The translations under genes were made by a program, and so were the position numbers. Under the pieces are notes generated by a model. It was given only the letters and a program-made list of their open reading frames with translations, had not been told where the DNA came from and did not search any database. Positions 3,817 to 23,611 of a stretch of DNA of 53,100 bases are shown here, in pieces (the first letter of the stretch is position 1; the number at the start of each line of letters is the position of its first letter). The stretch is from Acidobacteriota bacterium. Its GTDB lineage: Bacteria; Acidobacteriota; Thermoanaerobaculia; Multivoradales; JBCCEF01. Location of the stretch: the NCBI GenBank assembly GCA_039028635.1, contig JBCCHV010000042.1, forward strand, positions 1 through 53,100. Direction: 5' to 3'.

Positions 3817-3992
3817 GAGCGACCTGCGAGCGCGCCCCCGGACACCGTCGGCTCGCTGCTCGAGGCGGTGGAATGGCCTGAGATGTAAGAGCTTAGTTAC
3901 TTCCTCTCGAGGATGAAGGGGGAGGCAAACAGCCGCCCGGTCGGATACGCTTGCGGGCCGAGGCGCAAGCCTCCCTCCGAGAAAAGAGAACG

Positions 3993-6701
3993 ATGGCAGA
4001 GTGGACCCAGTTCGCGATTCTTTGCGGCCAGCTCTTTGTGACCGTTGCGGCCACGCTGGCCTTCTTCCGCCTGCGCCGGCATTTCGGCCTCGTGCCGCTG
4101 GCCGTGTTCGTCGGCTCCAATCAGTACCTGCAGACCCTGCTGTCTTCGACCCACTATCTGCAATTCGGCGAGGACTTCCTGGTCTCCCCCGGTTCGGTGG
4201 TGCTGTTCCCGGCGGGATTGGTGGCCTTGCTCTTGATCTACCACCACGACGGGGTGGAGAAGGCCCGCGGCCTGATCATCGGCGTCTTGTTGGCGAATCT
4301 CTCGCTGACCGTCTTCTCCTGGTTCACCCAGGCGCAGATTCGTCTCGGCGGAGTCGCCAATCTGCTCGGAGTGCCACCGGAGCTGTTCGAGGTCGACGCC
4401 CGCGTATTCCTGGCCGGGTCGTCGGCGCTCGCCGCCGACGCCGTGCTGATCGTCGTTCTCTACGAGGTCGTGACCACCCGCTGGAAGTCCTTCCCGGTGG
4501 CTTTGCGCATGCCGGCGGCGCTCAGCCTGGTGCTGCTCTTCGATGCTGTCGTGTTCTCTTCCCTGGCCTTCCTGGGCAAGCCCGAGTTCGGTCAGATCCT
4601 GCTCACCCAGGTGCTTTCGAAGCTGATCTCCGCCGGCGTCTACGGCCTGCTGCTGGTGACCTACCTGCGCTGGTCGTCGAGCGCGCCGGGAGATTTGGGG
4701 CAGGGGGTCGGCACCGGCGCCTTCGCCATCCTCACCTATCGCGAGCGCTTCGAGCTCCTGCGCAGCCATCAGCAGGCCCAGGAGCAGGCCTTCGAGCGCG
4801 AGCGTGCGCAGTCACGGGCTGCCCTCGACGCCGCCGAAGCGCGCTATCGCTGGCTCTTCCGCACCATGACCGATGGTCTGCTGGTGCTCGACGACCGCGA
4901 CCGCATCGTCGATCTCAATCCCGCCTTCGTCGCGCTCTGCGGCCGCTCGGCGGAAGATCTCATCGGCCGCTCACCGACCCGTTTCGGGCTCTTCGCCCAG
5001 CAGGATCCCTGGCGCACCGAGGGTGTCCCGGTGGAGACCGGGCTGCGGCGCCCCGGCGGTGAGTCCGTCGAGGTCGAGCTGCGCAGCAACCCGCTGCCCG
5101 CCGAAGGCGGCGGCGGGACGGTGATCTCGGTGCACGACATCACCGCCCGCAAGGCCGCCGAGGCGGAGCTCCTCGCCTCCCGCGACACCCTGCGCCAGAC
5201 GGTGGAGCAGAGGACCCGCGAGCTGGTGGAGAAGAACCGCGCCCTGCAGCAGCGAGAGGCGCGCTTCCGGCTGCTCTTCGAGGAAAGCCTGGGGCTGATC
5301 TGCACCTACGACCTCGATGGCCGATTGACTTCCGTCAACCCGGCCGCCGCCGACCTCCTGGGCTACGACCGCACCGAGCTCCTCGGCGAGAGCGTGCTCA
5401 AGTTCATTCCGGAGCAGTTCCGCAACGAAGGCGCCGACGACCTGGCGTCGCTGCGCGCCCAGAGCGGCCATAGCGGGGTGGTGACCTTCGTTGCCCGGGA
5501 CGGCTCCTGGCGGGCCTTGATCTTTCGCTCGCGGCTGATCAACGACGGCGTCAATCCGCCCTTCGTCCTCGGCCACGGTCAGGACGTCACCGCCCTCAAG
5601 AAGACCGAGGCCAAGCTGCGCGACAGCGAGCATCGCTACCGCGATCTCTTCGAGAGCAGTCACGACCTGATCCAGGCGGTCGATGCGGAGGGCCGCTTTC
5701 TGCTCGTCAACGGCGCCTGGCGTCGCCTCCTGGGCTATGACGAGGGAGATCTCGAAGGTCTGCGGGCCCTCGATGTCGTCCATCCCGACCGGCGAGATGC
5801 CTTCCAGGCGGTGCTCGATTCGCTGATGGCCGGCGAGGCCGCCGGCCTGGTGGAGACCGAGCTGCTCACCCGAGAAGGAGTTCCGATGCTGGTGGAGGGC
5901 ACCTTGAGCTGCGCCTTCGAGCGCGGTCGGCCGTCGTCCGTGCGGGCGATCTTCCGCGACATCACCGAGCGTCGGGCCGTCGAGCGTCTGAAGGACGACT
6001 TCTTGTCCACCGTCAGCCACGAGCTGCGCACTCCGGTGACTTCGATCTTCGGCTCCCTCAAGCTGCTCGCGGCGGGCAAGGCCGGTGCTGTGCCGCCGGC
6101 CATGGGGCGCTACCTCGACGTCGCGTCGCGCAATGCCCAGCGGCTGGTTTGGTTGATCGACGACATTCTCGACTTTCAGAAGATCCGCTCCGACCTCTTG
6201 GAGGTGCGACCGGTTTATGTGAAAGTCACGGATCTGGTCGAGCAGGCGTTAGAAGACAATCGGGGTTTTGCGACCGAGCACGGCATCCGCCTGACCCTCG
6301 GGGAGTCGGCGCCGGAAGCGGCGGTCCGGGTCGACCGCGATTGGTTTCTCCAGCTCTTGGCCAACTTGATCTCGAACGCCGTCAAACATTCGCCCCAAGG
6401 GGAACAGGTGATCGTGGCGACCAGCGCTTCGGCGCGCCAGGTGGAGGTTTCCGTTCGGGATCACGGTCCCGGGATCCCGGCCGAGGCGCGGGAGACCATC
6501 TTCCGTCCCTTCTCGCAGCTACAGCAGGAGAAAGAAGCCCGCAAGTCCGGGACCGGTCTCGGTTTGAGCATCGCCCGCGCCGTCGCGGAGCGATTCGACG
6601 GCACCCTGACCTTCGCCAGCGATCTCGGGGCCGGAACCACTTTTCGGGTGACCCTGCCGGTGGCTTCGGCGAGCTTCGCCGGGGATGGCGGCGAGGGCTG
6701 A
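3993..6701 (+). CDS. Membrane sensor histidine kinase with three PAS domains
   Basis: The protein has about 902 residues. Residues 1-225 hold roughly six hydrophobic segments that look like a compact membrane module, including FLVSPGSVVLFPAGLVALL and a conserved-looking HHDGVEKARG loop. Three PAS domains follow (about 283-395, 423-540 and 546-662), with coiled-coil linkers. The HisKA domain carries FLSTVSHELRTPVTS (phospho-acceptor His near residue 676). The HATPase domain has N-box NLISNAVKHS, G1 DHGPGIP and G2 GTGLGLS. I chose the ATG at 3993 because GAGAAAAGAGAACG precedes it and the hydrophobic segment begins directly after; an in-frame TTG at 3951 is the alternative. The stop lies 1 nt before the next start, so the following receiver-Ser/Thr kinase is very likely its partner. 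No receiver domain is fused to this kinase. Confidence 0.9.
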   Translation: MAEWTQFAILCGQLFVTVAATLAFFRLRRHFGLVPLAVFVGSNQYLQTLLSSTHYLQFGEDFLVSPGSVVLFPAGLVALLLIYHHDGVEKARGLIIGVLLANLSLTVFSWFTQAQIRLGGVANLLGVPPELFEVDARVFLAGSSALAADAVLIVVLYEVVTTRWKSFPVALRMPAALSLVLLFDAVVFSSLAFLGKPEFGQILLTQVLSKLISAGVYGLLLVTYLRWSSSAPGDLGQGVGTGAFAILTYRERFELLRSHQQAQEQAFERERAQSRAALDAAEARYRWLFRTMTDGLLVLDDRDRIVDLNPAFVALCGRSAEDLIGRSPTRFGLFAQQDPWRTEGVPVETGLRRPGGESVEVELRSNPLPAEGGGGTVISVHDITARKAAEAELLASRDTLRQTVEQRTRELVEKNRALQQREARFRLLFEESLGLICTYDLDGRLTSVNPAAADLLGYDRTELLGESVLKFIPEQFRNEGADDLASLRAQSGHSGVVTFVARDGSWRALIFRSRLINDGVNPPFVLGHGQDVTALKKTEAKLRDSEHRYRDLFESSHDLIQAVDAEGRFLLVNGAWRRLLGYDEGDLEGLRALDVVHPDRRDAFQAVLDSLMAGEAAGLVETELLTREGVPMLVEGTLSCAFERGRPSSVRAIFRDITERRAVERLKDDFLSTVSHELRTPVTSIFGSLKLLAAGKAGAVPPAMGRYLDVASRNAQRLVWLIDDILDFQKIRSDLLEVRPVYVKVTDLVEQALEDNRGFATEHGIRLTLGESAPEAAVRVDRDWFLQLLANLISNAVKHSPQGEQVIVATSASARQVEVSVRDHGPGIPAEARETIFRPFSQLQQEKEARKSGTGLGLSIARAVAERFDGTLTFASDLGAGTTFRVTLPVASASFAGDGGEG

Positions 6702-6702
6702 G

Positions 6703-7965
6703 ATGGCGACCGTTCTCGCCATCGACGACGATCCCGACATCCTGGTGGTCATCGCCGGCGCTCTGGAGAGTGCCGGCCATGTGGTGGTCACCGAGACGGT
6801 GGCGCAGGACGTCGTGACGATGAGTCTCGATCACGGCGTCGACGTGGTCGTTCTCGACGTCAACATGCCCGACTTCTCCGGCTTCGATGCCCTGGCGGCG
6901 CTGCGCGACGATGCCCGCACCGGAGGCCTGCCGGTGCTCTTCCTCTCGGCCCTCGGCGACAGTCACCACCGCATTCGCGGCCTGCGGCGCGGCGCCGACG
7001 ACTATCTCGGCAAGCCCTTCGAGCCGGAAGAGCTGGTGCTGCGAGTGGAGAAGCTGCAGACCAAGATGCTGCGCGCCGGCAGTATCGACTCGACCCCCGC
7101 CCAGAGCCTCCGGGAAGCCCTGCTCCATGGCGACCTGACCACCGGTCAGGTCTTCTTGGGCCGCTACCAGGTGCTGGAGAAGGTCGGCAAAGGGGCGACC
7201 GGCGTCGTCTTGCGCGGCTGGGATGCCCGTCTGCGCCGGCCGGTGGCCCTCAAGGTCTTCCTGCGCACCGGACCCCTCGAAGGCGTTGCCGAGCTCGATC
7301 TGCTGGCGGCGCTCACCGAGGAGGCGGCCATCCTGGCCCGCTTCAGCCATCCCAACATCGTTTCCGTCTACGACGCCGGCGTCGATCGCGGGGTCGGCTT
7401 CATCGTCATGGAGTTCGTCACCGGGGTCTCGCTCCTCACCCGCTTGCGCGACCAGGTGCTGCTGCCGCGGCGCGAGGTGGTGCGCCTGGGAATCGAAGTC
7501 TGTCGGGCCTTGCAAACCGCCCATGACCAGCAGCTGGTGCATCGCGACATCACCCCGAGCAACATCCTTCTCGGCTCCGCCGGCGAAGCCAAGGTGACCG
7601 ACTTCGGCGTCGCCGGCATCGTCACTTCGCTGTCGCGAGAGGATGTCGGCATCATCGGGACTCCCGGCTACGTGCCACCGGAAGCTCTGCGCGGTGAGGT
7701 CCATGGTGCCGCCGGGGATATTTTCAGCCTCGGTGCCGTGCTCTACTTCTGTCTCACTGGAAGATTGGCCTACTGTGCTCCCAACGGTTCCTTGCGCGAC
7801 CTTCTTCGGGGCACCCTCGAGGGCGAGCTGGTGGCGATCGAAGAGCTCCGCCCGGGGACCTCGCCGGAGCTCTGTGAGCTGGTGCTGCGGATGCTGTCGC
7901 GGCAGCCTGAGCAGCGGCCGCTGCCCTGGGAGACGGAGAAACGGCTACGGGCCCTGGTTCCGTGA
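6703..7965 (+). CDS. Response regulator receiver fused to Ser/Thr protein kinase
   Basis: This is a 420-residue fusion protein. The N-terminal receiver has acidic residues at 8-10 (AIDDDPD), the phospho-acceptor Asp52 in VVVLDVNMP, and Lys104 in LGKPF. After a short linker comes a Hanks-type kinase from about residue 151: glycine loop GKGATGVV, Lys184 in VALKVF, catalytic loop HRDITPSN (280-287), DFG (300-302) and activation-segment end GTPGYVPPEAL. The usual catalytic-loop Lys of HRDLKP is Thr, a variation common in bacterial kinases. No transmembrane segment or TPR tail follows, so it should be cytosolic. I chose the ATG at 6703 because GGCGAGGG lies just upstream; an in-frame ATG at 6685 would overlap the histidine kinase. 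The arrangement implies a phosphorelay from the upstream histidine kinase that gates Ser/Thr phosphorylation of an unknown target. Confidence 0.9.
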   Translation: MATVLAIDDDPDILVVIAGALESAGHVVVTETVAQDVVTMSLDHGVDVVVLDVNMPDFSGFDALAALRDDARTGGLPVLFLSALGDSHHRIRGLRRGADDYLGKPFEPEELVLRVEKLQTKMLRAGSIDSTPAQSLREALLHGDLTTGQVFLGRYQVLEKVGKGATGVVLRGWDARLRRPVALKVFLRTGPLEGVAELDLLAALTEEAAILARFSHPNIVSVYDAGVDRGVGFIVMEFVTGVSLLTRLRDQVLLPRREVVRLGIEVCRALQTAHDQQLVHRDITPSNILLGSAGEAKVTDFGVAGIVTSLSREDVGIIGTPGYVPPEALRGEVHGAAGDIFSLGAVLYFCLTGRLAYCAPNGSLRDLLRGTLEGELVAIEELRPGTSPELCELVLRMLSRQPEQRPLPWETEKRLRALVP

Positions 7966-8584: not shown

Positions 8585-8668
8585 AGAAACCTTCTGCGTC
8601 GTTGTCGTACCAAGAGGATGGACCCGCAGAAGCGGTGGTTTCGAGGACATTCCGGATGGAGGCGGACG

Positions 8669-9175
8669 ATGCTTGCAAAGTCGAAGGGGGTGGGATGGCT
8701 GCTGGGGCTGATCGTGTTGCTGGCAGCGCCGTTGGTGAGCGCCGACGACGAGGCGCCGAAGGGTTTCGAAGGGCAGGCCTTCTTCTTCGCCCTGTCGGTG
8801 GCCGATGTCGAAGCCAGCGTCGCCTGGTACCAGCGAGTGCTGGGCTTCGAGCCGGTCCGGGAGGTCGATGTCGCGGCGCGCGGCCTGCGCATTCGCTTGC
8901 TGCGCCGGCCCGGGGCATATCTCGAGCTGATCGAGCTCGCCGGTGCCCGCTCCGCGGCCGAGATCGATCCCGAGATCGCCAAGGCCTATGAGGTCCTCGG
9001 TCCCTTCAAGATCGGTTTCCAGGTCGAGAGCCTGGATCGTACGCTGCAGCTCTTCGAGGCTCAGAAAGTGCCGCTGCGGGGCTCGGTGATCGCCGAAGAC
9101 GACCTCCGCCTGCGGTCGACTCAGATCGTCGATCCGGACGGCAACGTCCTGCAGATCTTCGAGTCCCTCGACTGA
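8669..9175 (+). CDS. Exported VOC/glyoxalase-fold protein
   Basis: This is a 168-residue protein with an N-terminal signal peptide (MLAKSKGVGWLLGLIVLLAAP, cleavage near VSADD). A single vicinal-oxygen-chelate domain follows: FFFALSVADVEASVAWYQRV opens the first beta-alpha-beta module and QIVDPDGNVLQIFE closes the second. Most VOC proteins of this size are cytosolic, so the signal peptide makes a periplasmic role likely. The substrate cannot be read from the sequence. The ATG at 8669 is preceded by a strong GGAGG at 8658-8662; an in-frame ATG at 8618 would add a non-signal extension and is less likely. The gene sits 84 nt after the DinB-like gene and ends at the terminator at 9219-9262. Confidence 0.85.
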   Translation: MLAKSKGVGWLLGLIVLLAAPLVSADDEAPKGFEGQAFFFALSVADVEASVAWYQRVLGFEPVREVDVAARGLRIRLLRRPGAYLELIELAGARSAAEIDPEIAKAYEVLGPFKIGFQVESLDRTLQLFEAQKVPLRGSVIAEDDLRLRSTQIVDPDGNVLQIFESLD

Positions 9176-9218
9176 GTCTCTGGAGGGTCGCTGCGAGACG
9201 CTCACGGTCTCGCTGACG

Positions 9219-9262
9219 GGCGCTGAAAGAGTCGCGTGGCGACTTCTTCAGCGCCTGTTTTT
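9219..9262 (+). terminator. Rho-independent terminator
   Basis: Arms of 17 nt (9219-9235 and 9239-9255) pair with only two mismatches across a GTG loop. A T-rich tail (tgttttt) follows directly. It ends the DinB/VOC unit and insulates the sigma-54 promoter region downstream. Confidence 0.85.
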
Positions 9263-9347
9263 CTTTCCGGCGGTCTAGAGGCGCCTTGCCGTCGCAGCCC
9301 GGCGTCATCCACTTCCATCCCCATTCGGGCTTCTAACCGGCCGCCCG

Positions 9348-9379
9348 GACAGGTGTCCGGGTGGCGCCGGACACCTGTC
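9348..9379. promoter_or_regulatory. Perfect 13-bp dyad, candidate enhancer site for the NtrC-type regulator
   Basis: GACAGGTGTCCGG and CCGGACACCTGTC form perfect 13-bp arms around a 6-nt spacer. The dyad is centred about 120 bp upstream of the predicted transcription start (near 9483), which is the usual position of upstream activator sites for sigma-54 enhancer-binding proteins. No T-tract follows, so a terminator is unlikely. The matching regulator would be the Fis-type response regulator encoded at 14118-15530; that link is inferred. Confidence 0.55.
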
Positions 9380-9455
9380 AACGGCTTTGCCGTCATTCTA
9401 TTCGTTGATTCCCTTCAAGTACCTGATGGGTAGTGGTTTAGGTCTTTATCGAGGG

Positions 9456-9472
9456 TTGGCCCGAGACTTGCT
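9456..9472 (+). promoter_or_regulatory. Sigma-54 (-24/-12) promoter
   Basis: TTGGCCCGAGACTTGCT matches the sigma-54 consensus TTGGCACG-N4-TTGCA. The invariant GG (9458-9459) and GC (9470-9471) have the required 10-nt spacing. Transcription should start near 9483. That gives a leader of only about 17 nt that contains the GGAGG site (9487-9491) of the adaptor gene. Confidence 0.75.
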
Positions 9473-9499
9473 GTAGAGAGCAGACGGGAGGATGAAGAC

Positions 9500-10765
9500 G
9501 TGATTCGAGATAGCTCAGCCATGGATCGCTCGGTCGACCGGCCGCGCCGCCGTCGTTGGCCCCTGCTGTTGCTGCTGGCGGCCTCGATCGCCGGAGCGAT
9601 CTATGCCTATCCGTCGGTCAAGCGGTGGGCCAGCTCGGAGACCTCCGTGTCGCTGGCAGAGATTCGTATCGGCACCGTCGAACGCGGCGACCTGGTGCAC
9701 GACGTTTCCGTGCAGGGCAACGTGGTGGCGGCCTTTCGGCCGACCCTGGTGAGCCCGGTGCGGGGCATCGTGCGGGTGGTCGCCGAGGCCGGCAAGCTGG
9801 CCGAAGCCGGCGAAGTGCTGGCCCGCCTGTCGAATCCGGAGATCGAGAGTCGCCTGCAGCAGGAGCGCTCGACTCTCGAGTCGCTGCGCTCGGAGGTCGA
9901 GCGGCAGCGCATCCTGGCCAAGCAGGGCAGCCTGCAGGGGGAGCAGGACATCCGCCTGCTCGAGGTCGAGGTCGAGGCCGCCCGGCGCGCCCTCGAGCGC
10001 GCCGAGCGCTCGCGGGCCGAGGGCTTGCTCAACGTCGTCGAGCTGGAAAAGGCTCAGGACGAGGTCGAGGTCTCGACCCTCGAGCTCGAGCTCGCCCGCC
10101 AGCGCCTCGCCCTCGACCGCGAAATGCTCGACTTCGAGGTGCGCGAGAAGGAGGCCGAGGTGGTGCGCCAGGGATTGGTGGTGGCGGATCTCGAGCGTCA
10201 GGTCGACGAGCTGACGGTGCGGGCGCCGGTTTCGAGCCTGGTGTCACGAGTCGAGGTCACCGACCGCGAATCGGTGACCGTCGGCCAGGCTCTGGTGGCG
10301 CTGGTCGACCTGTCCGCCTTCGAGATCGAAGTATCCGTGCCGGAGAGCTACACCCAGCAGCTCGGTCCCGGCACGGAGGCGGTGATCTCGGTCGGCGGGC
10401 GTGATTTTCGCGGCGTGCTGGAGTCGCTGTCGGCGGAGGTTCGGGGGAGCCGGGTGCAGGGCGTGGTGGCCTTCTCCGGTGAGGCCCCGGAGGGTTTGAA
10501 GCAAAACCAGCGAGTCACCACTCGGCTGCTCCTCGACACCCGTAGCGACACCCTCAAGGTGCCGCGCGGGGCGTTTCTGGAGAGCGGCGGCGGTCGTCTG
10601 GCCTATGTCGTCGAAGACGGTCTGGCGGTGCTGCGCGACATCGAGGTCGGAGCGCGCAGCGTGGCCGAGGTCGAGATCCTCTCGGGGCTCGACGTCGGCG
10701 ATCGCATCGTGTTGTCGGATACCAACCGCTTCGAGGGAGCGGAGAAGATACTTCTGCGTCGCTGA
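9500..10765 (+). CDS. Periplasmic adaptor subunit, HlyD/MacA type
   Basis: This is a 421-residue membrane-fusion protein. After a cytosolic Arg-rich start there is one membrane anchor (WPLLLLLAASIAGAIYAYP, about residues 16-34). The lipoyl half-motif RGDLVHDVSVQG begins the barrel-sandwich region. A long coiled-coil hairpin of Glu/Leu/Arg heptads runs from about residue 110 to 230. The second lipoyl half ADLERQVDELTVRAPVSS follows, then the beta-barrel and membrane-proximal domains. Such subunits bridge inner-membrane ABC permeases to an outer-membrane TolC-like channel; none is encoded nearby. The GTG at 9500 is the best start because GGAGG lies 8 nt upstream; an ATG at 9521 is the alternative. 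It is the first gene of the sigma-54-driven unit. Confidence 0.88.
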   Translation: MIRDSSAMDRSVDRPRRRRWPLLLLLAASIAGAIYAYPSVKRWASSETSVSLAEIRIGTVERGDLVHDVSVQGNVVAAFRPTLVSPVRGIVRVVAEAGKLAEAGEVLARLSNPEIESRLQQERSTLESLRSEVERQRILAKQGSLQGEQDIRLLEVEVEAARRALERAERSRAEGLLNVVELEKAQDEVEVSTLELELARQRLALDREMLDFEVREKEAEVVRQGLVVADLERQVDELTVRAPVSSLVSRVEVTDRESVTVGQALVALVDLSAFEIEVSVPESYTQQLGPGTEAVISVGGRDFRGVLESLSAEVRGSRVQGVVAFSGEAPEGLKQNQRVTTRLLLDTRSDTLKVPRGAFLESGGGRLAYVVEDGLAVLRDIEVGARSVAEVEILSGLDVGDRIVLSDTNRFEGAEKILLRR

Positions 10766-10800
10766 GGCGACGACAGAGCTTGCGGGAAGGAGAGATCGGG

Positions 10801-11526
10801 ATGATCAGAATGAGCAACATCACGCGGGTCTACCGCACCCAGCATGTCGAGACCCATGCCCTGAGTGGCTTCAACCTCGAGGTCGAAGCCGGGGAGTTCG
10901 TCTCCGTCACCGGCCCCAGTGGCTCCGGCAAGACGACTTTTCTCAACGTCTCCGGGCTGCTCGACACCTTCGACTCCGGGACCTACATCCTCGATGGGCG
11001 CGACGTCAGCCGCCTGTCGGACCGCGAGATGTCGAAGATCCGCAACGAGAAGATCGGCTTCATCTTTCAGGGCTTCAACCTGATTCCGGACCTCAACGTG
11101 TTCGACAACATCGACGTCCCCTTGCGCTACCGGGGTACCTCGGCGAAGGCACGGCGAGCGGCGATCGAAGAGGCCCTCGAGGTGGTCGGCCTGAGCTCCC
11201 GCATTCGCCACTTCCCGGCGCAGCTCTCCGGCGGTCAGCAGCAGCGGGTGGCGGTGGCGCGGGCCCTGGTCGGCACGCCGCACCTGATTCTGGCCGACGA
11301 GCCGACCGGCAACCTCGACTCCGAGATGGCGAGCGAGATCATGGATCTGCTCGAGAAGATCAACGGCGCCGGCACGACGGTGATCGTGGTCACCCACGAT
11401 CCCGACCTGGCGGCACGGGCGCCGCGGCAGATCCACCTGCTCGACGGCAAGCTGCTCGATGTCCACGAGCAAGAGCGCCCCTTGCCCTTGCTCGATTCCG
11501 CTCACCGCGACGGCGTGACCGCCTAG
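10801..11526 (+). CDS. ABC transporter ATP-binding protein, MacB/LolD type
   Basis: This is a 241-residue nucleotide-binding subunit. It has Walker A GPSGSGKTT, Q-loop IFQGFNLIPDLNVFDNI, signature LSGGQQQRVAVARAL, Walker B LILADEPTGNLDS and H-loop VVTHDPDLA. The N-LIPxxxxxxN pattern after the Q-loop is typical of the type VII (MacB/LolD/FtsE) family, which drives mechanotransmission rather than substrate passage through the membrane. The start ATG follows AAGGAG with 8-nt spacing. It lies 35 nt after the adaptor gene and 13 nt before the first permease, so it is clearly in one operon. Confidence 0.93.
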   Translation: MIRMSNITRVYRTQHVETHALSGFNLEVEAGEFVSVTGPSGSGKTTFLNVSGLLDTFDSGTYILDGRDVSRLSDREMSKIRNEKIGFIFQGFNLIPDLNVFDNIDVPLRYRGTSAKARRAAIEEALEVVGLSSRIRHFPAQLSGGQQQRVAVARALVGTPHLILADEPTGNLDSEMASEIMDLLEKINGAGTTVIVVTHDPDLAARAPRQIHLLDGKLLDVHEQERPLPLLDSAHRDGVTA

Positions 11527-11539
11527 GGGAGGCGAGATC

Positions 11540-12853
11540 ATGTTGGCCTACCAAATTCGGATGGCGTTCCTGAGCTTGCGCCGGAACCCCTATCTCTCGA
11601 CTTTGTTGATCGCCGGCATCGCCGTCGGCATCGCGGTGGCGACGTCCTTCGTGACCATCCACCACCTGATGGGCAAGGACCCCCTGCCGAGCAAGAGCTC
11701 GCGGGTGGTCTACGTCCAGGTCGATGCCTGGGACCCGGACGGTCCCTACGACGACGACAACCCCACGGAGCCGCCCGACCAGCTCACCTACCGCGATGCC
11801 CGGGCCCTCCTCGAAAGCGACATCCCGACCCACCAGTCGGCGATGTTCAAAGCCCAGCTCACGGTTCATCCGGAGGAGGCCGGAGCCCGACCCTTCCGCG
11901 CCATGACCCGCATGTGCACCGGGGGCTTCTTCCCCATGTTCGAGGTCCCCTTCCTCTACGGCGGCGGCTGGAATCAGCAGGCCGACGATGGTCCCGAGCA
12001 GGTCGCCGTGCTGAGCTTCGAGACCAACGTCAAGCTGTTCGGTGGCGACGACAGCGTCGGTCGCCGGGTGCGCATCGAGGATCGTGACTTCACGGTGGTC
12101 GGGGTGATGGCGCCCTGGAGCCCGTCGCCGAAGTTCTACGACACCCTCAACGGCGCCTTCGATCCGGCGGAGGAGATCTATCTGCCCTTCCGCCTGGTCG
12201 AGCCGATGGAGATCGACACCGCCGGCAACACCAACGGCTGGAAGTTCTGGTCCGGCACCGAGTTCGAGGAGTTTCTCGAAACGGAGTACACCTGGGTGCA
12301 GATGTGGGCCCAGGTCGATACCCCCGAGCAGCGCGACCGCTACATGGCCTTCCTCAACGCCTACGCTCAGCAGCAGAAGGACCTCGGGCGCCACGGCCGG
12401 CCGATCAACAACCGCCTCAAGTCGGTCACCGAATGGCTCGATTTCCAGGAGGTGGTGGCCGAGGAGGTCACCAGCCTGGCATTGATCGCCGTGCTCTTCC
12501 TGGTGGTCTGTGCCTTCAACCTGATCGGCATCCTGCTCGGCAAGTTCCTGGCCCGGGCGCCGGAGGTCGGGGTGCGTCGCGCCCTCGGAGCGAGCAAGGC
12601 CTCGGTCTTCCTGCAGCATCTCATCGAGTGTCAGGTGATCGGGGTCCTGGGGGGAGTCTTCGGCCTTCTGTTGGCCACTCTCTCGCTACGCGTGATCGGT
12701 CGCATGGTGCAGGTCGAAGAAGTCTTGCGGCTCGATTTCGAGATGGCCGTACTGGGGATTCTGATGTCCCTCGGAGCGGCCTTCGTCGCCGGCACCTATC
12801 CCGCCTGGCGGATCTGCCGGATCGCCCCGGCGGCCTACCTCAAACTGCAGTGA
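11540..12853 (+). CDS. MacB-like ABC permease (first of two)
   Basis: This is a 437-residue permease with the type VII layout: one N-terminal membrane helix (about residues 20-40), a large periplasmic core domain to about residue 310, then three C-terminal helices beginning LALIAVLFLVVCAFNLIGI. The motif EVGVRRALGASKASVFLQ between helices 2 and 3 is the conserved FtsX-family coupling loop. The periplasmic part is larger and more acidic than in the second permease. GGGGAGG precedes the ATG. With the second permease it probably forms a heterodimer served by the shared ATPase. The substrate is unknown; lipids, peptides and antibiotics are all handled by relatives. Confidence 0.9.
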   Translation: MLAYQIRMAFLSLRRNPYLSTLLIAGIAVGIAVATSFVTIHHLMGKDPLPSKSSRVVYVQVDAWDPDGPYDDDNPTEPPDQLTYRDARALLESDIPTHQSAMFKAQLTVHPEEAGARPFRAMTRMCTGGFFPMFEVPFLYGGGWNQQADDGPEQVAVLSFETNVKLFGGDDSVGRRVRIEDRDFTVVGVMAPWSPSPKFYDTLNGAFDPAEEIYLPFRLVEPMEIDTAGNTNGWKFWSGTEFEEFLETEYTWVQMWAQVDTPEQRDRYMAFLNAYAQQQKDLGRHGRPINNRLKSVTEWLDFQEVVAEEVTSLALIAVLFLVVCAFNLIGILLGKFLARAPEVGVRRALGASKASVFLQHLIECQVIGVLGGVFGLLLATLSLRVIGRMVQVEEVLRLDFEMAVLGILMSLGAAFVAGTYPAWRICRIAPAAYLKLQ

Positions 12854-12869: not shown

Positions 12870-14096
12870 ATGGAGCTCGGACCGATCTTTCGATCTTTGA
12901 TGCACAACAAGGTGCGTTTCTGGCTGATCGCCCTCGAGGTGGCCTTCACCCTGGCGATCGTCGTCAACTGCGTCAACATGGTGCTCGACCTGCACGGGCA
13001 GTACGTCGAGGACACCGGTCAGGACGAGAAGAACATGCTGATGGTGATCGTCGAGCCCTTCGACAAGCAATTCGAGGACGACGACTTCATCGACACCGTG
13101 CGGGCTCAGGACATCGCCCGCCTGCGGGCTACGCCGGGGGTCGTCGAAGCCATCGCCACCAGCGCGATTCCGCTGAGTGGCGGCGGTAGCGGAACAGGCC
13201 GCCGGCCGGTGGACGCCGTCGACCAGGAAGACGGCGTCGGCCTCGGCTATTTCTCGGTCACCGAAGGGGCGGTCGCGGCCTTCGGCACTCGCCTGGTCGC
13301 CGGTCGCACCTTCGAGGCCAGCGATTTCCAGTTCGAGCCCAACGAGGACGGCCTCGTGCTGGAGCGCAATGTCATCGTCACCAAGTCTCTGGCGGACAAG
13401 CTCTTCCCGGACGGGAATGCCCTCGGCAAGGTGATTCAGAACGACTCCGGCGAGGCTCGGGAAACGATCATCGGCGTGGTCGACCGGCTGCAGAACTTCT
13501 GGCCCTGGTCGAGCGTCGGCTGGGACACCATGCTGCGCGCCGGCGAGCCCGGCGACAGCCGCAGCATGCGCTATTTGCTGCGCACCGAGGCGGGGGCCAT
13601 CGACGCGGTGGCCGCCGGCCTCGAGGAGCGCATGCTGGAGGCCGAGCCGGGGCGCCTGGTCACGGTGCGGGCGGTGAGCGAGTTCAAGCGTCGCCTGTAC
13701 AACGACGAGCTGGCGCTGATCAACATTCTGTTGGTGGTCACCGTGCTGATGATTCTGGTGACTTCCCTGGGCATCATCGGCCTGACCTCCTTCTCGGTGA
13801 CCGAGCGAACGCGGCAGATCGGGACCCGCCGGGCCCTCGGCGCCACCAAGGGCGACATCGTGCGCTATTTCTTGACCGAGAACTGGTTGATCACTGGCGT
13901 CGGCCTCTTCGTCGGGTTGATTCTCAGTCTGGGCCTCAACTACACCTTGGTGCAGGTCGCAGGCATGCCCAAGATCGATTGGAAGCTGTTGGCCGGCGGC
14001 ATGCTGCTGCTGTGGGGATCGGGTATCTTGGCGGCTCTGGCACCGGCCCTGCGCGCCACCTCGGTGGCGCCGGAAGTTGCCACCCGCACAGTCTGA
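12870..14096 (+). CDS. MacB-like ABC permease (second of two)
   Basis: This is a 408-residue permease with the same type VII topology. It has an N-terminal helix FWLIALEVAFTLAIVVNCV, a periplasmic core, and three C-terminal helices starting LINILLVVTVLMILVTSLGI. The coupling loop reads RQIGTRRALGATKGDIVRYF. It starts 16 nt after the first permease, with AAGGAG upstream. Two unequal permease genes under one ATPase indicate a heterodimeric complex rather than the MacB homodimer. The next gene, a regulator, begins only 21 nt downstream, so transporter and regulator are probably co-transcribed. Confidence 0.9.
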   Translation: MELGPIFRSLMHNKVRFWLIALEVAFTLAIVVNCVNMVLDLHGQYVEDTGQDEKNMLMVIVEPFDKQFEDDDFIDTVRAQDIARLRATPGVVEAIATSAIPLSGGGSGTGRRPVDAVDQEDGVGLGYFSVTEGAVAAFGTRLVAGRTFEASDFQFEPNEDGLVLERNVIVTKSLADKLFPDGNALGKVIQNDSGEARETIIGVVDRLQNFWPWSSVGWDTMLRAGEPGDSRSMRYLLRTEAGAIDAVAAGLEERMLEAEPGRLVTVRAVSEFKRRLYNDELALINILLVVTVLMILVTSLGIIGLTSFSVTERTRQIGTRRALGATKGDIVRYFLTENWLITGVGLFVGLILSLGLNYTLVQVAGMPKIDWKLLAGGMLLLWGSGILAALAPALRATSVAPEVATRTV

Positions 14097-14117
14097 GGGG
14101 ATGGGGAGGGGACGTTG

Positions 14118-15530
14118 ATGAACCAAGAGCCCTTGAAGGTACTGATCGTCGACGACCAGGAGGCGGTGCTCAGCGCCCTGACGGTGCTCTTCGAGATCCA
14201 TGACGTTCCCTATGTCACTGCCACCACCCCGGAGAGTGCCCTCGAGCAGGTGCGGAGTCACTCTCTCGGGGTGGTGGTCCAGGACATGAACTTCCGCCGC
14301 GACGAGACCTCCGGCGCGGCGGGGATCGAGCTCTTTCGCCAGATCCGCGAGGCGCAGCCAGGGGTACCCATCCTGCTGATGACCGCCTGGGCTTCCCTCG
14401 AAACCGCCGTCGAGCTGGTGCGCGAAGGCGCCGCCGATTACCTGCAGAAGCCGTGGAACGACGAGAAGCTCCTGGCGACCGTCGAAAACCTGCTCCGCAT
14501 GCGTCGCCTCGAGCTCGAAAACGAAGCGCTGCGTTCGGAGCTGCGGCAATCCCGGCAGGATCTGGCCGAGGACCACGATCTGCGCGGCCTGGTCTACGCC
14601 AGCGAGGCGATGCATCGGGTGGTCAGCCTGGCGGTGAGCGTCGCCGATTCGGAGGCGCCGGTGATGATCACCGGCGCCAGCGGCTCCGGCAAAGAGAAGA
14701 TCGCCGAGATCGTGCAGGCCAACTCGCGGCGCAGTGACCGACCCTTTGTGAAGGTCAATGTCGGTGCCTTGCCGGAGGAGCTGCTCGAAGCCGAGCTCTT
14801 CGGTGCCGAGGCCGGCGCCTTCACCGGCTCGCGCAGTCGGCGCATCGGCCACTTCGAGACCGCCGATGGCGGCACGCTATTCCTCGACGAGGTCGATTCC
14901 CTCTCCCTGCAGGGGCAGGTCAAGCTCTTGCGCGTCTTGCAGAGCGGGGAGTTTCAGCGCCTCGGCAGTAGCGAGACGCGACGCGTCGATGTGCGCGTGC
15001 TGAGCGCCACCAACAGCGATCTCTCCGCTGCCTTGGCCGCGGGGCGTTTTCGGGAAGATCTCTTCTTTCGCCTCAACGTGGTCGAGATCAAGATTCCCGG
15101 ACTCGACCAGCGGCAGCGAGACATTCTTCCCCTGGCGCGCCACTTTCTCGAGGTCTTCGCGCGCCGCGAAGGGGCCGCGCCCAAGGTGCTCGGCGAGGAG
15201 GCCGAGCGCGCCCTCCTCGGGCATTCCTGGAGCGGCAACGTGCGAGAGCTCCAGAACCGCGTTCAGCGGGCCACGGTGGTGGCCCAGGAGCGCGAGATCC
15301 GAGTCTCCGACCTCGGTCTCGAAGCGGCCGACTCGCCTGCCGAGTCGGATGCGCTGCCGGCCGATCTGGCGCCCTCGGAGCTCGAAGACCGGGCTCGTCT
15401 GGTGCAGGTGCTGGCCGAGGAGGGCGGGGTGGTCACCCGCGTCGCCGAACGCCTCGGCCTCAGCCGTCAGGCTCTCTACCGGCGGATGGCCCGCCTCGGC
15501 ATCGAGCTCGAAAGGCGTCCAAAGGTCTAA
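14118..15530 (+). CDS. Sigma-54-dependent Fis-family response regulator (NtrC type)
   Basis: This is a 470-residue regulator in three parts. The receiver (about 1-125) has VDDQ at the acidic pocket, the phospho-acceptor Asp in VVVQDMNF and Lys in LQKPW. The AAA+ domain (about 160-395) has Walker A GASGSGKE, Walker B GGTLFLDEVDSL and arginine-finger region FREDLFFRLNVVEIKIPGL. The sigma-54 contact loop reads GAFTGS (residues 233-238) instead of the nearly universal GAFTGA. The C-terminal Fis-type HTH ends SRQALYRRMARLGIEL. The start is the ATG at 14118 behind GGGAGGGGACGTTG. The promoter upstream of the adaptor gene is of the class this protein activates, so autoregulation of the whole locus is likely. 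Its presumed sensor is the NtrY-like kinase downstream. Confidence 0.93.
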   Translation: MNQEPLKVLIVDDQEAVLSALTVLFEIHDVPYVTATTPESALEQVRSHSLGVVVQDMNFRRDETSGAAGIELFRQIREAQPGVPILLMTAWASLETAVELVREGAADYLQKPWNDEKLLATVENLLRMRRLELENEALRSELRQSRQDLAEDHDLRGLVYASEAMHRVVSLAVSVADSEAPVMITGASGSGKEKIAEIVQANSRRSDRPFVKVNVGALPEELLEAELFGAEAGAFTGSRSRRIGHFETADGGTLFLDEVDSLSLQGQVKLLRVLQSGEFQRLGSSETRRVDVRVLSATNSDLSAALAAGRFREDLFFRLNVVEIKIPGLDQRQRDILPLARHFLEVFARREGAAPKVLGEEAERALLGHSWSGNVRELQNRVQRATVVAQEREIRVSDLGLEAADSPAESDALPADLAPSELEDRARLVQVLAEEGGVVTRVAERLGLSRQALYRRMARLGIELERRPKV

Positions 15531-15706
15531 CCCGCCCTTCTCACGAGCTTTCCGCTGCGCGTCCGTATGTCCCCGAATCTGCTGCGTTTTCCGTCGCCTG
15601 CTCTCCTTGCAGTATGTCGAGTACGGCGTCGTCGTTGCAGCGACGGATGCCTTGCATCTTCAAGAACCTACGGCCTCTCGCCAGGAAACCTCGTGAGAAG
15701 GGCGGG
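15531..15706. repeat. 176-nt near-palindromic element between regulator and sensor genes
   Basis: The first and last 23 nt (15531-15553 and 15684-15706) are reverse complements with one mismatch; the outermost 17 nt are perfect. The interior keeps pairing at matching offsets (CCGTA, GT, GAA, TGC, then CCGTCGC with GCGACGG). Almost the whole segment could therefore fold into one long imperfect hairpin with a loop near 15600-15640. It begins directly after the TAA stop of the regulator and contains no supported ORF. No T-tract follows, so it is not a classical terminator. It looks like a MITE-type insertion or a structured RNA processing/attenuation element. Confidence 0.6.
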
Positions 15707-15736
15707 CTAAATCACTCTGGGTTCGGCGGCGCCCGC

Positions 15737-17453: not shown

Positions 17454-17581
17454 CAGTGGCTCGAAGCGTGCTGAAAGGCCTTGACTCGCGGTGCTACTGT
17501 GATTTTCGTCCACAACGGATGCCCGTGGATTCCCCCTCAACGACCGGCCGGTGACGCCGCTGGCCGAAAGGACCTAGGAAC

Positions 17582-19851: not shown

Positions 19852-19952
19852 GCCCTCCTCGGGCCTGCTGGCCTCTTTGTTCAGACCTCAGCAACGGGCC
19901 GTGCAGCCGCCCCGGAGCGATCGCTCCGGGGCGCGCCCGATCGAGGGTCGCT

Positions 19953-22900
19953 TCAGGGCTGCAGGCGGCGCCAAGCCGCGGCCACCAAGAGCGTCATCAT
20001 GGCGATCAGCCCCCATTGGCCGAGGGTCGGAATCTCCAGGATCGTGGGGACTTCGACCAGGATCGGGGTCGGGTCGTTTTCCCCGTCCTCGTTGGCGTTG
20101 TCGTCGCCGTCCGGGTCCGGCTCGGGACCATCGTGGGACAGGTCGGTGGTGCTGCCATTGAGGCTCTCTCCAGTCGCCACCGCCTGGTTGTCGAAGGCCA
20201 TGATGCCTGCCGGATCGATGGTGACCTCGAAGGCGATCTCACCCATCGCGCCGATATCGAGGGTGCTCGATGCGGACACCAGCAGGGTGGTGTCTCCGAG
20301 GCCGTCGTAGCCGGCGTTGGCCATCAACGTTCCGGTGCCTCCGGTCAGCGTCGCCGTCGGCGATGTGACCGCGATGACCGACGCCGGAGCCGGGAAGGTC
20401 GCGTTCAGATCGTCGGTCACCTGGACGTCGAAGAGATCGAGCGGACCGAGGTTTTCGACCAAGATCAGAATTGGCACGGTGTAGGTGCCGTCGCCGTTGT
20501 CGACCGTCAGGCCGGCGGACTTGGCGATTCCGATGCTCGGATCAGGAGGCGTGACCGAGATGTCCACGCTGTCGCTCGCGGTGACCATCGTTCCGGCGGG
20601 GCTGCTGCCTTCGCCTTCAACGGTATTGGTGAAGGGACCTCCGATTCCCGCCGAAGTGAAGGTCACCGAGAAGGAGATGGTCTCGACGGCCGCCAAGGGC
20701 AGGGTGCTCGCAGCGGCATCGAGCAGGCTCGTGTCGCCGTCGCCGTCGAAGCCGCCGTTGGCGGTCAGGGTCCCGGAAGCGACCGGCACCGTCACGGAGC
20801 TCACCGACGATGGTGGCGGGAAGGTCGCCGTCAGGTCATCGGTGACCTGTACCTCTGTGAGCACCACATTGCCGGTGTTGCTGACGGTCAGCAGATAGGG
20901 CACGGTGAAGGTGCCGTCCAGGTTGTCGACCACCGGGCCATCGACGGTCTTGGTGACGGAGATCGCCGGGTTCTCGACGATCGACACGTCGGCCGTGTCG
21001 GTGTCGGTGACCGGCGTACCGGCCGGGCTGCTGGCGTCGGCCGTTGCCGAGTTGGTGAACGGTCCGAGCTCGCCGTTGGGCTCGAGCACCACCGTGAGGT
21101 CGAGGGTGACGGTCGCCGCCGGTGCCAAAGAGCTGGCGCTGGCGTCGAGGAGCGTGGTGTCCGTGGGGCCGGTGAAGTCGAGGGTGACAGTGCCACAGCT
21201 ACCGGCGCTGCAGGCCGCCATCGCCGACACCAGGTTGACCGGTGCCGGGAAGGTCGTGACCAGATCGTCGGTCACCTGCACCATCGAGAGGTCGACGTTG
21301 CCGGGGTTGGTCACCACCAGGCTGAAGGTGGCTTCGAACTGCCCGCCCCCGATGTCGGTGATCGCGCCGGCGGTCTTGACGATGGTGATGGCGGGTGTCT
21401 CGGATACCGAGATCTCGACCGCGTCATCGTCAGTCACCGGATTGCCGATCGGGTCCTGCGCCGAACCGTTGGCGGTGTTGTTGAACGGACCGGCCAAGCC
21501 GTTGGGATCGAAGCGCACCGTGAACCCGATGGTCTCGCTGTCGCCGATCGGCAGGGTACTCCCTGCGGCGACCAGCAGACTCGAGTCGCCATCGCCATCG
21601 AAGGCGCCGTTGGCGGAGAGGCTGCCGCTGGCGGTCGGTCCGGTGATGACGGCGAAGGTCGCCGGCGGGGGGAAGGTGGCCGTCAGATCGTCGGCCACCT
21701 GGACCATCACCAGATCGGTGGCGCCGGTGTTCTCGAGGGTCACGGTGTAGGGAACCTCGAACTGGCCAGGATTGCCCGCCGAATCGACGACCGCGCCGGC
21801 TGTCTTGGTGACGGTCAGTCCGGGCGCTCCGACAGTGGTGACCTCCGCCGTCAGGCGGCAGAGCGGACCGAACCGGGTGGTCGCCCGGGAGAGGGCCGCG
21901 CTGGCACACGCCGAGGTGCTGCCGCCGGCATCGGCGCAGGTCTCGTCGAGGAAAGTCGCGGTGGTTCCCGTGCCCGGCGCCGGCGCGTCCGGTGGCGGGC
22001 CGCCGGTCAAGTCGAGGGTGCCGGTAGCGGTTGGCAGAACATCGATGTCATAGGTCAAGGAGGCGCTGGTTCCGGCGGCCACCACGCCCGGTGCGAAGGT
22101 CAGGGTCCAGGGGCCGGCACCGGCCTCTGCGGTGGCCGACGAGGTGCCGCCTGCGATCGCCGCCGAGCCGGCGACATAGGTGGTCTGTCCGCCGTTGGTC
22201 GGCACCGTTGCCACGGCCACATTCGTGCCGCCGGTGGCGGCGTCGAGCTGGATTGGATACTCGGTGGGGTTGGTGACGGTGACCGTCACCCGAACCCGAC
22301 TGGTGACGCCGACGGCGAGGGGCGGCTCGCCGGCCAGTAGCGCCCACGAGTGCCCGACCCAGGGCTTGACGGGGGCGATGACGACGTCGTCCGCTCCGCC
22401 CCGCTCGCCGAAGAAGCGGCTGCCGTCGGCCGGCAGGTAGAGGCGAACGGCGCCGGCTTCGGGCTGCATATCCGGTCCGCCGCTGGCGGGAGTGGTCGCC
22501 CCGTCGGCCGGATTGTCGGAGGTGGGATCTCCCACCCACCAGGTGACGTGGTTGAACAAGCCGATGATCCAGCGCGCGCTCCACAGTCCATAGTCCGAGG
22601 CATCGCTGGCGGAGGCGAAATCGGTCACCGCGTTCTCGGCCCAAACCCCATTGCCACTGAAGGTGGGTGTGAAGGTCGGTGAGGCGCCGGCGCGGGTCGT
22701 CCAGGTCAAGGACTCGTCGCCGTCCACGTCGACGTCGAAGTCATTGCAGCTCAGCGAACAGTAGCCCTGCACGTAAGGATAGAAGTCGTGGGTTCTGCTG
22801 TACCCCGGATCGCTCGCGAAGCTCGCCGCGTAGACCTGGCCGATGCCGACGTAGGAGTCGGCGTAGACATTGATCTCGTTGGCTCCGGCGCCGGCCGAGC

Positions 22901-23546
22901 CATCGTGGGCGCGGATGCCGAAGGCGTTGGCGTCGTCTTCGTCGGTGGGGCCGGAGTTGGGGCTACTGACGGCCATCCGCCAATGACCCGGCGCTGGATT
23001 GGAGACGGAGAAAACGCCCAGGTCGGACCAGGCGTTGTTGCAGAAGGTCTGCAAGCCGACGGTGACGGGGTCGCAGTCCTGGCCCGGCAGGCTGATCGAT
23101 GCGACGCTCGTGCCGTCGGGAGCGAAGAGCTCGAAGGTGGTCGCCGCATCCCAGCCGCTCGTCGTGTTGTCCTGATCGTGCTCTTCGGTGCCGGCCACGT
23201 CGCCGGCCCCCAGATCGGCATCGAAAACCTCCACCACCAGCATGCCCGCCGACAATGACGGCGGGACTTCAATGTAGAAGTCGTGGCTGACCGCGCCGAG
23301 GCTTTGGAGACCTTGGTTCGAGAGCAGATAGTCGCCGAAATTGAAACCGCGATCGGGCCCGAGGGTGGCCAACAGCTGGTTTTCGTTGTCCGGTAGCGTA
23401 TCGGCGTCGCCGCTGTCTTCGACCAGGGGACTGGTACCCGGGTCCGGGGTGCCGCCGGCCGAGCCGGTTTGCGGGATGAAGGAAAACGCCAAGGCCAAGA
23501 ACAAGGCGAGCGTCGACACTCGGAAGGTGGAAATCGGGCTCCACAT
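19953..23546 (-). CDS. IPTL-CTERM surface protein with DUF11-type repeats
   Basis: This is a large exported protein of 1197 residues. The signal peptide begins MWSPISTFRVSTLALFLALAF. The N-terminal 400 residues look beta-rich with many Asp and Asn. From about residue 600 there are four DUF11-like repeats, each opening with a VTKTAG- or AKSAGLTV-like motif and continuing with QV(T/A)DDL.(A/T)TFP.P. The C terminus is a canonical IPTL-CTERM tag: IPTLGQWGLIAMM, a hydrophobic helix, and a basic end (AWRRLQP). That tag is known to go with the exosortase-H sorting system, which is not in this window. The protein is thus likely processed and displayed at or released from the cell surface. GAGGAG sits 7 nt before the ATG, which rules out the upstream extension. 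Some repeats are nearly identical in part, so assembly or recombination errors are possible. Confidence 0.85.
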   Translation of the reverse strand: MWSPISTFRVSTLALFLALAFSFIPQTGSAGGTPDPGTSPLVEDSGDADTLPDNENQLLATLGPDRGFNFGDYLLSNQGLQSLGAVSHDFYIEVPPSLSAGMLVVEVFDADLGAGDVAGTEEHDQDNTTSGWDAATTFELFAPDGTSVASISLPGQDCDPVTVGLQTFCNNAWSDLGVFSVSNPAPGHWRMAVSSPNSGPTDEDDANAFGIRAHDGSAGAGANEINVYADSYVGIGQVYAASFASDPGYSRTHDFYPYVQGYCSLSCNDFDVDVDGDESLTWTTRAGASPTFTPTFSGNGVWAENAVTDFASASDASDYGLWSARWIIGLFNHVTWWVGDPTSDNPADGATTPASGGPDMQPEAGAVRLYLPADGSRFFGERGGADDVVIAPVKPWVGHSWALLAGEPPLAVGVTSRVRVTVTVTNPTEYPIQLDAATGGTNVAVATVPTNGGQTTYVAGSAAIAGGTSSATAEAGAGPWTLTFAPGVVAAGTSASLTYDIDVLPTATGTLDLTGGPPPDAPAPGTGTTATFLDETCADAGGSTSACASAALSRATTRFGPLCRLTAEVTTVGAPGLTVTKTAGAVVDSAGNPGQFEVPYTVTLENTGATDLVMVQVADDLTATFPPPATFAVITGPTASGSLSANGAFDGDGDSSLLVAAGSTLPIGDSETIGFTVRFDPNGLAGPFNNTANGSAQDPIGNPVTDDDAVEISVSETPAITIVKTAGAITDIGGGQFEATFSLVVTNPGNVDLSMVQVTDDLVTTFPAPVNLVSAMAACSAGSCGTVTLDFTGPTDTTLLDASASSLAPAATVTLDLTVVLEPNGELGPFTNSATADASSPAGTPVTDTDTADVSIVENPAISVTKTVDGPVVDNLDGTFTVPYLLTVSNTGNVVLTEVQVTDDLTATFPPPSSVSSVTVPVASGTLTANGGFDGDGDTSLLDAAASTLPLAAVETISFSVTFTSAGIGGPFTNTVEGEGSSPAGTMVTASDSVDISVTPPDPSIGIAKSAGLTVDNGDGTYTVPILILVENLGPLDLFDVQVTDDLNATFPAPASVIAVTSPTATLTGGTGTLMANAGYDGLGDTTLLVSASSTLDIGAMGEIAFEVTIDPAGIMAFDNQAVATGESLNGSTTDLSHDGPEPDPDGDDNANEDGENDPTPILVEVPTILEIPTLGQWGLIAMMTLLVAAAWRRLQP

Positions 23547-23611
23547 CGGATGCGCTCCTCTGGCTGGGAATGGGGGCAGGTTCGGTGGGTGGTGCCTGCG
23601 ATCAGGCAAGG

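Follow-up and report, generated by a model that had tools for sequence, protein, structure and literature searches.

Our analysis indicates that positions 9346–9483 of a 53,100-nt stretch of an Acidobacteriota genome (GCA_039028635.1, contig JBCCHV010000042.1; this whole stretch is hereafter the window, and positions are counted in it) are very probably the control region of a dedicated sigma-54 regulon, in which the NtrC-type response regulator encoded by a six-gene operon would activate the MacAB-like exporter of that same operon. The first-pass annotation of this DNA had proposed a closed loop between an operon-encoded NtrC-type regulator and a sigma-54 promoter. The conservation of the promoter and operator elements, the nearly exclusive presence of the operator at this operon and the co-occurrence of regulator and transporter across genomes, all of them computed here, support that proposal. 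The elements are the following:

9346–9359, no strand assigned: operator site A, CGGACAGGTGTCCG, matching 12 of 12 consensus positions, its centre 118.5 bp from the –12 base
9368–9381, no strand assigned: operator site B, CGGACACCTGTCAA, matching 10 of 12 consensus positions, its centre 96.5 bp from the –12 base
9457–9472, plus strand: sigma-54 –24/–12 promoter, TGGCCCGAGACTTGCT, with GG at 9458–9459, N10 and GC at 9470–9471

The promoter, with the exact GG-N10-GC spacing that had been described, is read directly from the DNA at 9457–9472, and its predicted transcription start at about 9483 leaves a leader of 17 nt up to the GTG at 9500, in line with the first-pass estimate. This GTG, the start of the adaptor gene, lines up with the start codons of relatives in the promoter alignment. 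The pattern TGGCACN5TTGCW has its sole match with at most one mismatch in the window at this place; with at most two mismatches there are 19 sites in the window against 15.5 expected, so the –24/–12 element taken alone is suggestive only and not strong evidence. On a weighted scale, whose weights are our own and follow the consensus, the site scores 19.9 of a maximum of 20.9; so high a score is expected by chance 0.18 times per window on both strands (60 simulations), or about 1.4e-4 times per 80-nt one-strand stretch. The genome encodes sigma-54 (one Sigma54_DBD match, E 5e-66). We count the observation as real because the elements are conserved in relatives. Activator sites of sigma-54 promoters usually lie roughly 80–200 bp upstream, and the conserved sites described here fall in that range, one genome (G044) being an outlier.

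Upstream of the promoter stands a perfect 13-bp inverted repeat with a 6-nt gap (9348–9379, centre at about –120). The window has two perfect inverted repeats whose arms reach 13 bp or more with a gap of at most 20 nt (9348–9379 and 19908–19933), against 0.025 expected (40 simulations), and TGTCCGG-N6-CCGGACA has one exact match in the window and, with at most three mismatches, 2 matches against 5.1 expected. The position and the perfection of this dyad, placed about 120 bp upstream by the first-pass annotation, hold good, but its description as a single dyad does not, since relatives show two palindromic sites: the dyad is better read as two tandem sites of the type CGGACAnnTGTCCG, their centres 22 bp apart in the window, built from a half-site that reads TGTYCG across the family. 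Among 22 tabulated promoters, selected for having the element, 19 carry two sites with centres 19–23 bp apart (22 bp in 9 of these); the exceptions are G015, with one good site, and L082 and L088, with sites 14–15 bp apart. Sixteen aligned promoters, hand-picked because the element is present, have a mean column identity of 39%, and their invariant columns are GACnnnTGTC, GGACnnnTGT, TGGC, TTGC and the AT of the second codon. The distance from site centre to –12 keeps to one face of the helix (mean resultant length R of 0.54 at 10.5 bp over the 22 promoters, 10.5 bp being the maximum when periods of 7–15 bp are scanned; P 0.0013 under a jitter null), one site per promoter having been chosen by hand, in principle the stronger and either one when equal. 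Some of these promoters are close kin, and R is 0.58 after dropping three of them.

Both elements recur in front of orthologous operons. In 59 genomes of the order, the adaptor was found at E ≤ 1e-80 in 15 genomes and 17 places, and 400 nt of upstream sequence could be scored for 15 of these 17 (L014 begins inside the gene, and upstream of L011 there are just 67 nt). Of the 15 orthologues or paralogues, 14 have an upstream sigma-54 site with a score of 18.4 or more, and 12 have, within 400 nt, a palindrome that agrees with CGGACAnnTGTCCG at 11 or all 12 positions. G044 is a thirteenth case, with its operator pair some 500 nt before the aligned start; the two left without the palindrome are L029 and L030, whose operons are those labelled L072/L073 and which represent second copies in the genomes G010 and G002. 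The first-pass annotation had suggested scanning related genomes for the dyad and the GG/GC pair, and had named their absence from orthologous operons as what would speak against it; this check, carried out here, did not speak against it. Among the adaptor matches listed, the best named ones include Acidobacteriota and Thermoanaerobaculia, and lower ones come from Gammaproteobacteria and from one record labelled Planctomycetota.

Two further observations concern more distant systems. In an Alteromonadaceae homologue (L127), five TGTTCG direct repeats with an exact 11-bp period stand upstream of position 10001, before a near-consensus sigma-54 site; judged by its sequence, this is the same half-site in a different architecture. 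Among the 13 loci L016-L028, which hold other MacA-like adaptor genes of the order and are distant paralogues, eight show a sigma-54-like site with a score of 18.4 or more in the upstream sequence that was read, up to 400 nt, and none has a palindrome of at least 11 matches. The order may thus hold several sigma-54-controlled MacB-type pumps with operators of their own.

The paired operator is nearly confined to this operon. Within the order, 8 of the 59 genomes have the exact pair, at 8 places of which 7 precede the adaptor; a phylum set of 396 has it in 9 genomes (9 places, 8 before the adaptor, each of those 8 with a sigma-54 site of at least 17.7). The two sets have 24 genomes in common and together comprise 431, in which the exact pair is found at 14 places, 12 of them at the transporter operon, and the reversed pattern at none. 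A first scan of the 59 genomes for a palindrome with a sigma-54 site at the right distance returned 8 places, 7 at the operon and one exception at G043:C34; a second returned 10 matches in 9 promoters, all at the operon. The two scans together give 11 promoters, 10 of them at the operon, and 0 in controls. At this stringency the predicted regulon is one target per genome. A larger regulon in the bacterium's own genome was considered and rejected, single palindromes being hardly more frequent than background (15 forward matches with one mismatch allowed, 3 of which are exact, against 9 for the reversed pattern). None of 35 pattern matches on viral contigs comes with an encoded relative of the adaptor.

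Some other matches were read individually. The order's only other exact pair (L049, on G031:C119, 1016–1560, minus strand) is followed by a sigma-54-like CGGCACGCTGTTTGCG and then by a secreted-looking protein of about 125 amino acids, which has no homologue in the other 58 genomes of the order and is therefore not a conserved regulon member. Sigma-54-like sites lie close by at L033 and L043. The latter, at 240–1750 of contig C52 of the same genome as the window, has a sigma-54-like TGGCAGAGCCTTTGCT with TTTGTCC/GGACA-like repeats upstream, in front of genes that read as a 54-aa membrane-like peptide, an RsbW-like ATPase and a STAS-like protein; we do not count it in the regulon, as it is a different operon with differently spaced repeats.

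The operator also goes with the regulator. We tabulated 72 loci, namely 65 of the 80 adaptor-match loci (15 were dropped, their contigs ending too early) and 7 others. Where the regulator is linked to the transporter, a sigma-54 score of at least 18.4 is found in 18 of 20 loci and the palindrome in 17 of 20; where it is unlinked, each is found in 2 of 52, a class that includes gammaproteobacterial genomes not searched for a regulator elsewhere. Both unlinked exceptions (G033 and Sulfidibacter corallicola) encode an orthologous regulator with an adjacent kinase elsewhere in the genome, as do G044 and G014; G028 likewise has the orthologous regulator elsewhere, on a contig that ends before any kinase is visible. 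Of these five genomes with the regulator apart from the transporter, the three with a visible promoter retain the operator, and in G014 and G028 the promoter lies off the contig. The three linked loci without the palindrome carry arrays of the same half-site in another order. Between –260 and –60, TGTYCG/CGRACA occurs at least twice in 20 of 20 linked loci and at most once in 59 of 59 others, some of which have their downstream side unseen; the reversed half-site is alike in linked and other loci (0.20 and 0.24). Left out of this count are L142, with 6 half-sites and its regulator elsewhere, the loci L075, L079 and L129, whose downstream side is unseen, and L081, L085 and L126, which have no upstream sequence; L079 carries the palindrome and a sigma-54 site. 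In the 59 genomes, regulator (E ≤ 1e-115) and adaptor occur together in 14, the adaptor only in 1, the regulator only in 2 and neither in 42; Fisher tests on linkage and on co-occurrence ignore kinship and are not to stand alone. In the adaptor-only genome, G015, the regulator lies behind the permeases, split by a 100-N assembly gap.

The presumed activator and sensor are encoded at the end of the operon:

14115–15530, plus strand: NtrC-type response regulator (PF00072, PF00158, PF02954), with receiver, AAA+ sigma-54 interaction domain and Fis-type helix-turn-helix
15749–17134, plus strand: histidine kinase with two transmembrane segments, a HAMP-like region, a weak PAS-like region, an H-box HELNNSL and a HATPase domain

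The regulator has the features of its class, a receiver with the phosphorylatable Asp, a GAFTGA-type loop in the AAA+ domain and a Fis-type helix-turn-helix. The loop reads GAFTGS in the window and GAFTGA, GAYTGA and similar in relatives, and the helix-turn-helix of the window reads SRQALYRRM. A QDMNF motif is present in 23 of 24 aligned regulator rows, the exception being L065, with an assembly gap, and the recognition helix (S/T)RQA(L/F)YR in all rows that reach that far except L127 (SRSALYR). In the kinase, PF02518 scores over its cut-off and HAMP, HisKA and PAS models under theirs; HELNNSL-type H-boxes recur in the aligned kinases. Intramembrane-sensing histidine kinases have two transmembrane helices fewer than about 25 residues apart and no other recognisable input domain. 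The spacing agrees with this class, since a crude hydropathy script finds two hydrophobic segments with 3–17 residues between them in 19 of 19 sequences (in the window the script gives 11 residues and inspection by eye about 4). Between HAMP and H-box lies a PAS-like stretch, with PF00989 at E 0.004 and PF13188 at E 0.006 in the window, both under cut-off; in a loose Pfam scan PF13188 is over cut-off in 2 of 9 kinases (L068 and L071), and some PAS model reaches E ≤ 1 in 9 of 9. The kinase thus has no external sensor and, probably, a cytoplasmic input domain; given this weak PAS-like domain, the missing external domain is, taken alone, no pointer to an envelope signal. The sensor with almost no external domain noted in the first pass is therefore upheld as to its short loop and qualified as to its input, which is likely to be the weak cytoplasmic PAS. 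The same annotation had the operon end with the NtrC-family regulator and an NtrY-like kinase follow it; regulator and kinase are both present, but the kinase belongs to the conserved operon order, and the NtrY label is loose, the best NCBIfam match being AtoS, far under its cut-off.

On the model of what is known of the protein family, which is our ground for regulator binding, phosphorylation and open-complex formation, a signal would lead the operon's kinase to phosphorylate the NtrC-type regulator. The regulator would bind the neighbouring pair of CGGACAnnTGTCCG sites, whose centres lie 97 and 119 bp before the –12 base, oligomerise and loop to RNA polymerase–sigma-54 at TGGCCCGAGACTTGCT, where its AAA+ ATPase would open the promoter at about 9483. 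The output would be the MacAB-like exporter together with further copies of the regulator and the kinase; this positive feedback should stay silent until a signal arrives. That signal might be read in the cytoplasm through the weak PAS, in the membrane, or from the transporter.

Several observations weigh against a dedicated regulon driven by the operon's own regulator. The operator pair of G044 lies about 430 bp from its –24, and the L072/L073 paralogues have weaker –24/–12 elements (16.5 and 18.4) and half-sites arranged differently. The pair, or the composite of palindrome and sigma-54 site, is found away from the operon at G031:C119, G415:C63 (an exact pair without a sigma-54 site) and G043:C34. 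The contrast between linked and unlinked loci is, on the adaptor tree, mostly one split between Acidobacteriota and Gammaproteobacteria; linkage changes 4 times and the motif 3 times, and a sign test on independent pairs is too small for significance. The regulator occurs without the adaptor in G021 (46% identity) and G037. Finally, the genome holds 17 matches to the regulator at E ≤ 1e-60, its own included, any other of which could bind the sites. This last point opens the reading that the sigma-54 promoter is real but that another activator of the genome binds both sites, the operon's regulator having other targets; the helix RQALYRR, common to the paralogues L072/L073, which lack the paired palindrome, fits it as well. 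We regard it as quite improbable, however, given that the operator is kept where the genome has an orthologue of the regulator even when the two are unlinked, that in the genomes searched the element is found almost nowhere but at this operon, and that the paralogues and the Alteromonadaceae homologue have TGTYCG half-site arrays in another arrangement. It is hardly credible that the dyad acts as an RNA hairpin (a terminator, an attenuator or an mRNA element) whose nearness to a –24/–12 look-alike is accidental. The dyad does fold well as RNA (–34.7 kcal/mol, z –4.4), but it lies upstream of the predicted start, its distance to the promoter is helically phased, the gene upstream already has a probable terminator at 9219–9266, and relatives retain the two palindromes and not the 13-bp pairing, for example CGGACATCTGTCCG with TGGACACCTGTCAA in G042; it is largely these sequences of relatives that led us to discard the terminator or RNA-element reading.

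The wiring of the promoter can be joined to more than one account of the kinase. We think it reasonably probable that the kinase responds to a signal in the cytoplasm, perceived by the PAS-like domain, or else to membrane lipids, and that the operon is an ordinary inducible pump rather than a module that senses its own transporter; the PAS-like stretch, under cut-off in the window and over it in two of the kinases, agrees with this, but the conserved near-absence of an external domain and the co-occurrence with the transporter even when unlinked would fit transporter sensing too. That the kinase takes its signal from the transporter itself, as proposed for BceS (PMC10314905), is a guess by analogy and in our judgement rather doubtful, and the PAS-like stretch weakens it. 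Unlikely, too, and a shade more so, is its extended form, a transporter-sensing module that arose independently of Bce, in which a kinase without an external domain would monitor how a MacB-type exporter is working and, by way of a sigma-54 regulon that has a single target and a dedicated, helically phased two-site operator, would have more exporter made on demand.

Bce modules have a single BceB-type permease with 10 transmembrane helices and a large extracellular domain, and an OmpR-type regulator; the present operon encodes two MacB_PCD/FtsX permeases with a MacA-like adaptor, and an NtrC-type regulator. The passages that describe Bce modules give a BceAB transporter, a BceS kinase without a dedicated sensing domain and the regulator BceR (PMC10314905), and the likeness to our system lies in an ABC transporter, a kinase without an external domain and a regulator that raises the transporter's own expression (PMC10314905). 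Beyond the permeases, our system differs in its adaptor and ATPase, in regulation through sigma-54 and in the weak PAS-like stretch of its kinase. Similar in wiring are the enhancer-binding protein regulons predicted in Desulfovibrio, where the relevant passages place the activator gene beside its target operon and a conserved inverted repeat upstream of the sigma-54 promoter (PMC4641369); co-localisation and inverted repeat are shared, and the operator sequence, the two-site geometry and the target are different. Sigma-54 promoters were reported, in the passages concerned, to be enriched for COG0577 in Gammaproteobacteria, Opitutia and Bacteroidia and for COG1136 in Opitutia, the authors calling this the first evidence of a link between sigma-54 and MacB-type systems (Carrera-Reyna et al., 2025; PMC12316311). 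Those systems resemble ours in having sigma-54 promoters before MacB/FtsX-type ABC systems; they come from other classes, and neither a cognate activator nor an operator is named in the passages. The main text of that paper contains neither "Acidobacteri" nor "upstream activating", and that of Francke et al. (PMC3162934) contains none of ABC transporter, MacB, efflux, permease, Acidobacter and autoregul. In the literature searched, mostly at the level of titles and abstracts, we found no published account of the operator, the regulator or the operon. Within that literature the operator and regulator appear to be new, sigma-54 control of MacB-type systems having already been predicted in 2025 (PMC12316311). 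Our analysis would add a concrete operator, activator and sensor to a link that, in the passages concerned, was predicted only statistically and in other classes (PMC12316311). With one regulator for one target, natural cases in which the two are unlinked, and cassettes without regulator and operator, it offers a clean test system for operator geometry and one suited to asking what switches a kinase that lacks an external domain.

The remaining genes of the operon encode the exporter:

9500–10765, plus strand: periplasmic adaptor of the MacA/RND-MFP type, GTG start (TIGR01730, 104.4 bits, cut-off 94.9)
10780–11526, plus strand: ABC ATPase, MacB/LolD/DarD-like (PF00005; NF038007 DarD, 262 bits, under the cut-off of 375), possibly starting at an ATG at 10801
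11540–12853, plus strand: MacB-type permease 1 (PF12704, PF02687; first half of ADOP TIGR03434, under cut-off)
12870–14096, plus strand: MacB-type permease 2 (PF02687, PF12704; second half of ADOP TIGR03434, under cut-off)

By sequence, the nearest solved structures are MacA for the adaptor and MacB for both permeases, which likens the system to MacAB-TolC; in MacB, however, the ATPase is fused to the permease, whereas here it is a separate gene beside two permease genes. A domain scan recognised no outer-membrane factor in the operon, and the genome was not searched for a TolC-type channel. The two permeases match the two halves of the duplicated-permease profile ADOP (TIGR03434), under cut-off and split here into two genes, and the ATPase and the adaptor resemble DarD and DarC of the darobactin exporter DarBCD, both under curated cut-offs. 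The gene order from adaptor to kinase is conserved among relatives: in 16 loci that we read, all six genes (adaptor, ATPase, permease, permease, regulator, kinase) are present in 8, contig ends cut 5, and the regulator does not follow the permeases in 3 (G033, G014 and G028). Across 29 loci, beyond frames overlapping the operon genes, no neighbouring family recurs in at least three acidobacterial loci; a GAF-like frame is shared by 6 gammaproteobacterial loci, and a small number of other families are found in 3.

Two structured elements flank parts of this region, and Rfam has no match in the window:

9219–9266, plus strand: probable intrinsic terminator of the upstream glyoxalase-like gene (8618–9175), a stem followed by a T-run
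15531–15707, no strand assigned: 177-nt repeat element with inverted ends, which abuts the stop codon of the regulator gene and has CTAA on either side

The first, read by eye and absent from the pattern-scan listing, folds as RNA at –35.5 kcal/mol (9212–9272, z –5.5) and probably sets the glyoxalase-like gene apart from the promoter region. The second has arms at 15528–15553 and 15684–15709 that are 92% complementary, folds at –84.8 kcal/mol (15525–15712, z –6.8), and has about 40 further distinct places in its own genome (80 matches, the rest being inverted ends that match one another) and 37 matches, diverged relatives, in the sister genome G001, where regulator and kinase are separated by a short gap only. 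In 15 copies that we read, the flanks are mostly CTAG-like, and the 4-bp CTAR-type flank is reminiscent of IS5-group insertions. The element looks like a miniature inverted-repeat transposable element and may lower or alter kinase expression in this strain.

Beyond the kinase, a TonB-dependent receptor gene starts 447 nt downstream, at 17582; it has no match above 80 bits in the 16 loci, and in a further set of loci only matches of 28–29% in three gammaproteobacterial ones. A sigma-54-like TGGCTCGAAGCGTGCT lies 109 nt before it (17457–17472), and we set this aside, as it is one of 5 sites in the window at a score where 3.8 are expected and no operator array was read there. The window's other perfect 13-bp palindrome, CGCCCCGGAGCGATCGCTCCGGGGCG (19908–19933), stands between the convergent TonB-receptor gene and a long reading frame at 19953–23657 and is perhaps a two-way terminator. 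Upstream of the operon, 6685–7965 encodes a receiver domain fused to a Ser/Thr protein kinase and adjoins a long frame at 3951–6701 that looks by eye like a multi-PAS histidine kinase; together, 3951–7965 would form a mixed arrangement of two-component and Ser/Thr protein kinase signalling.

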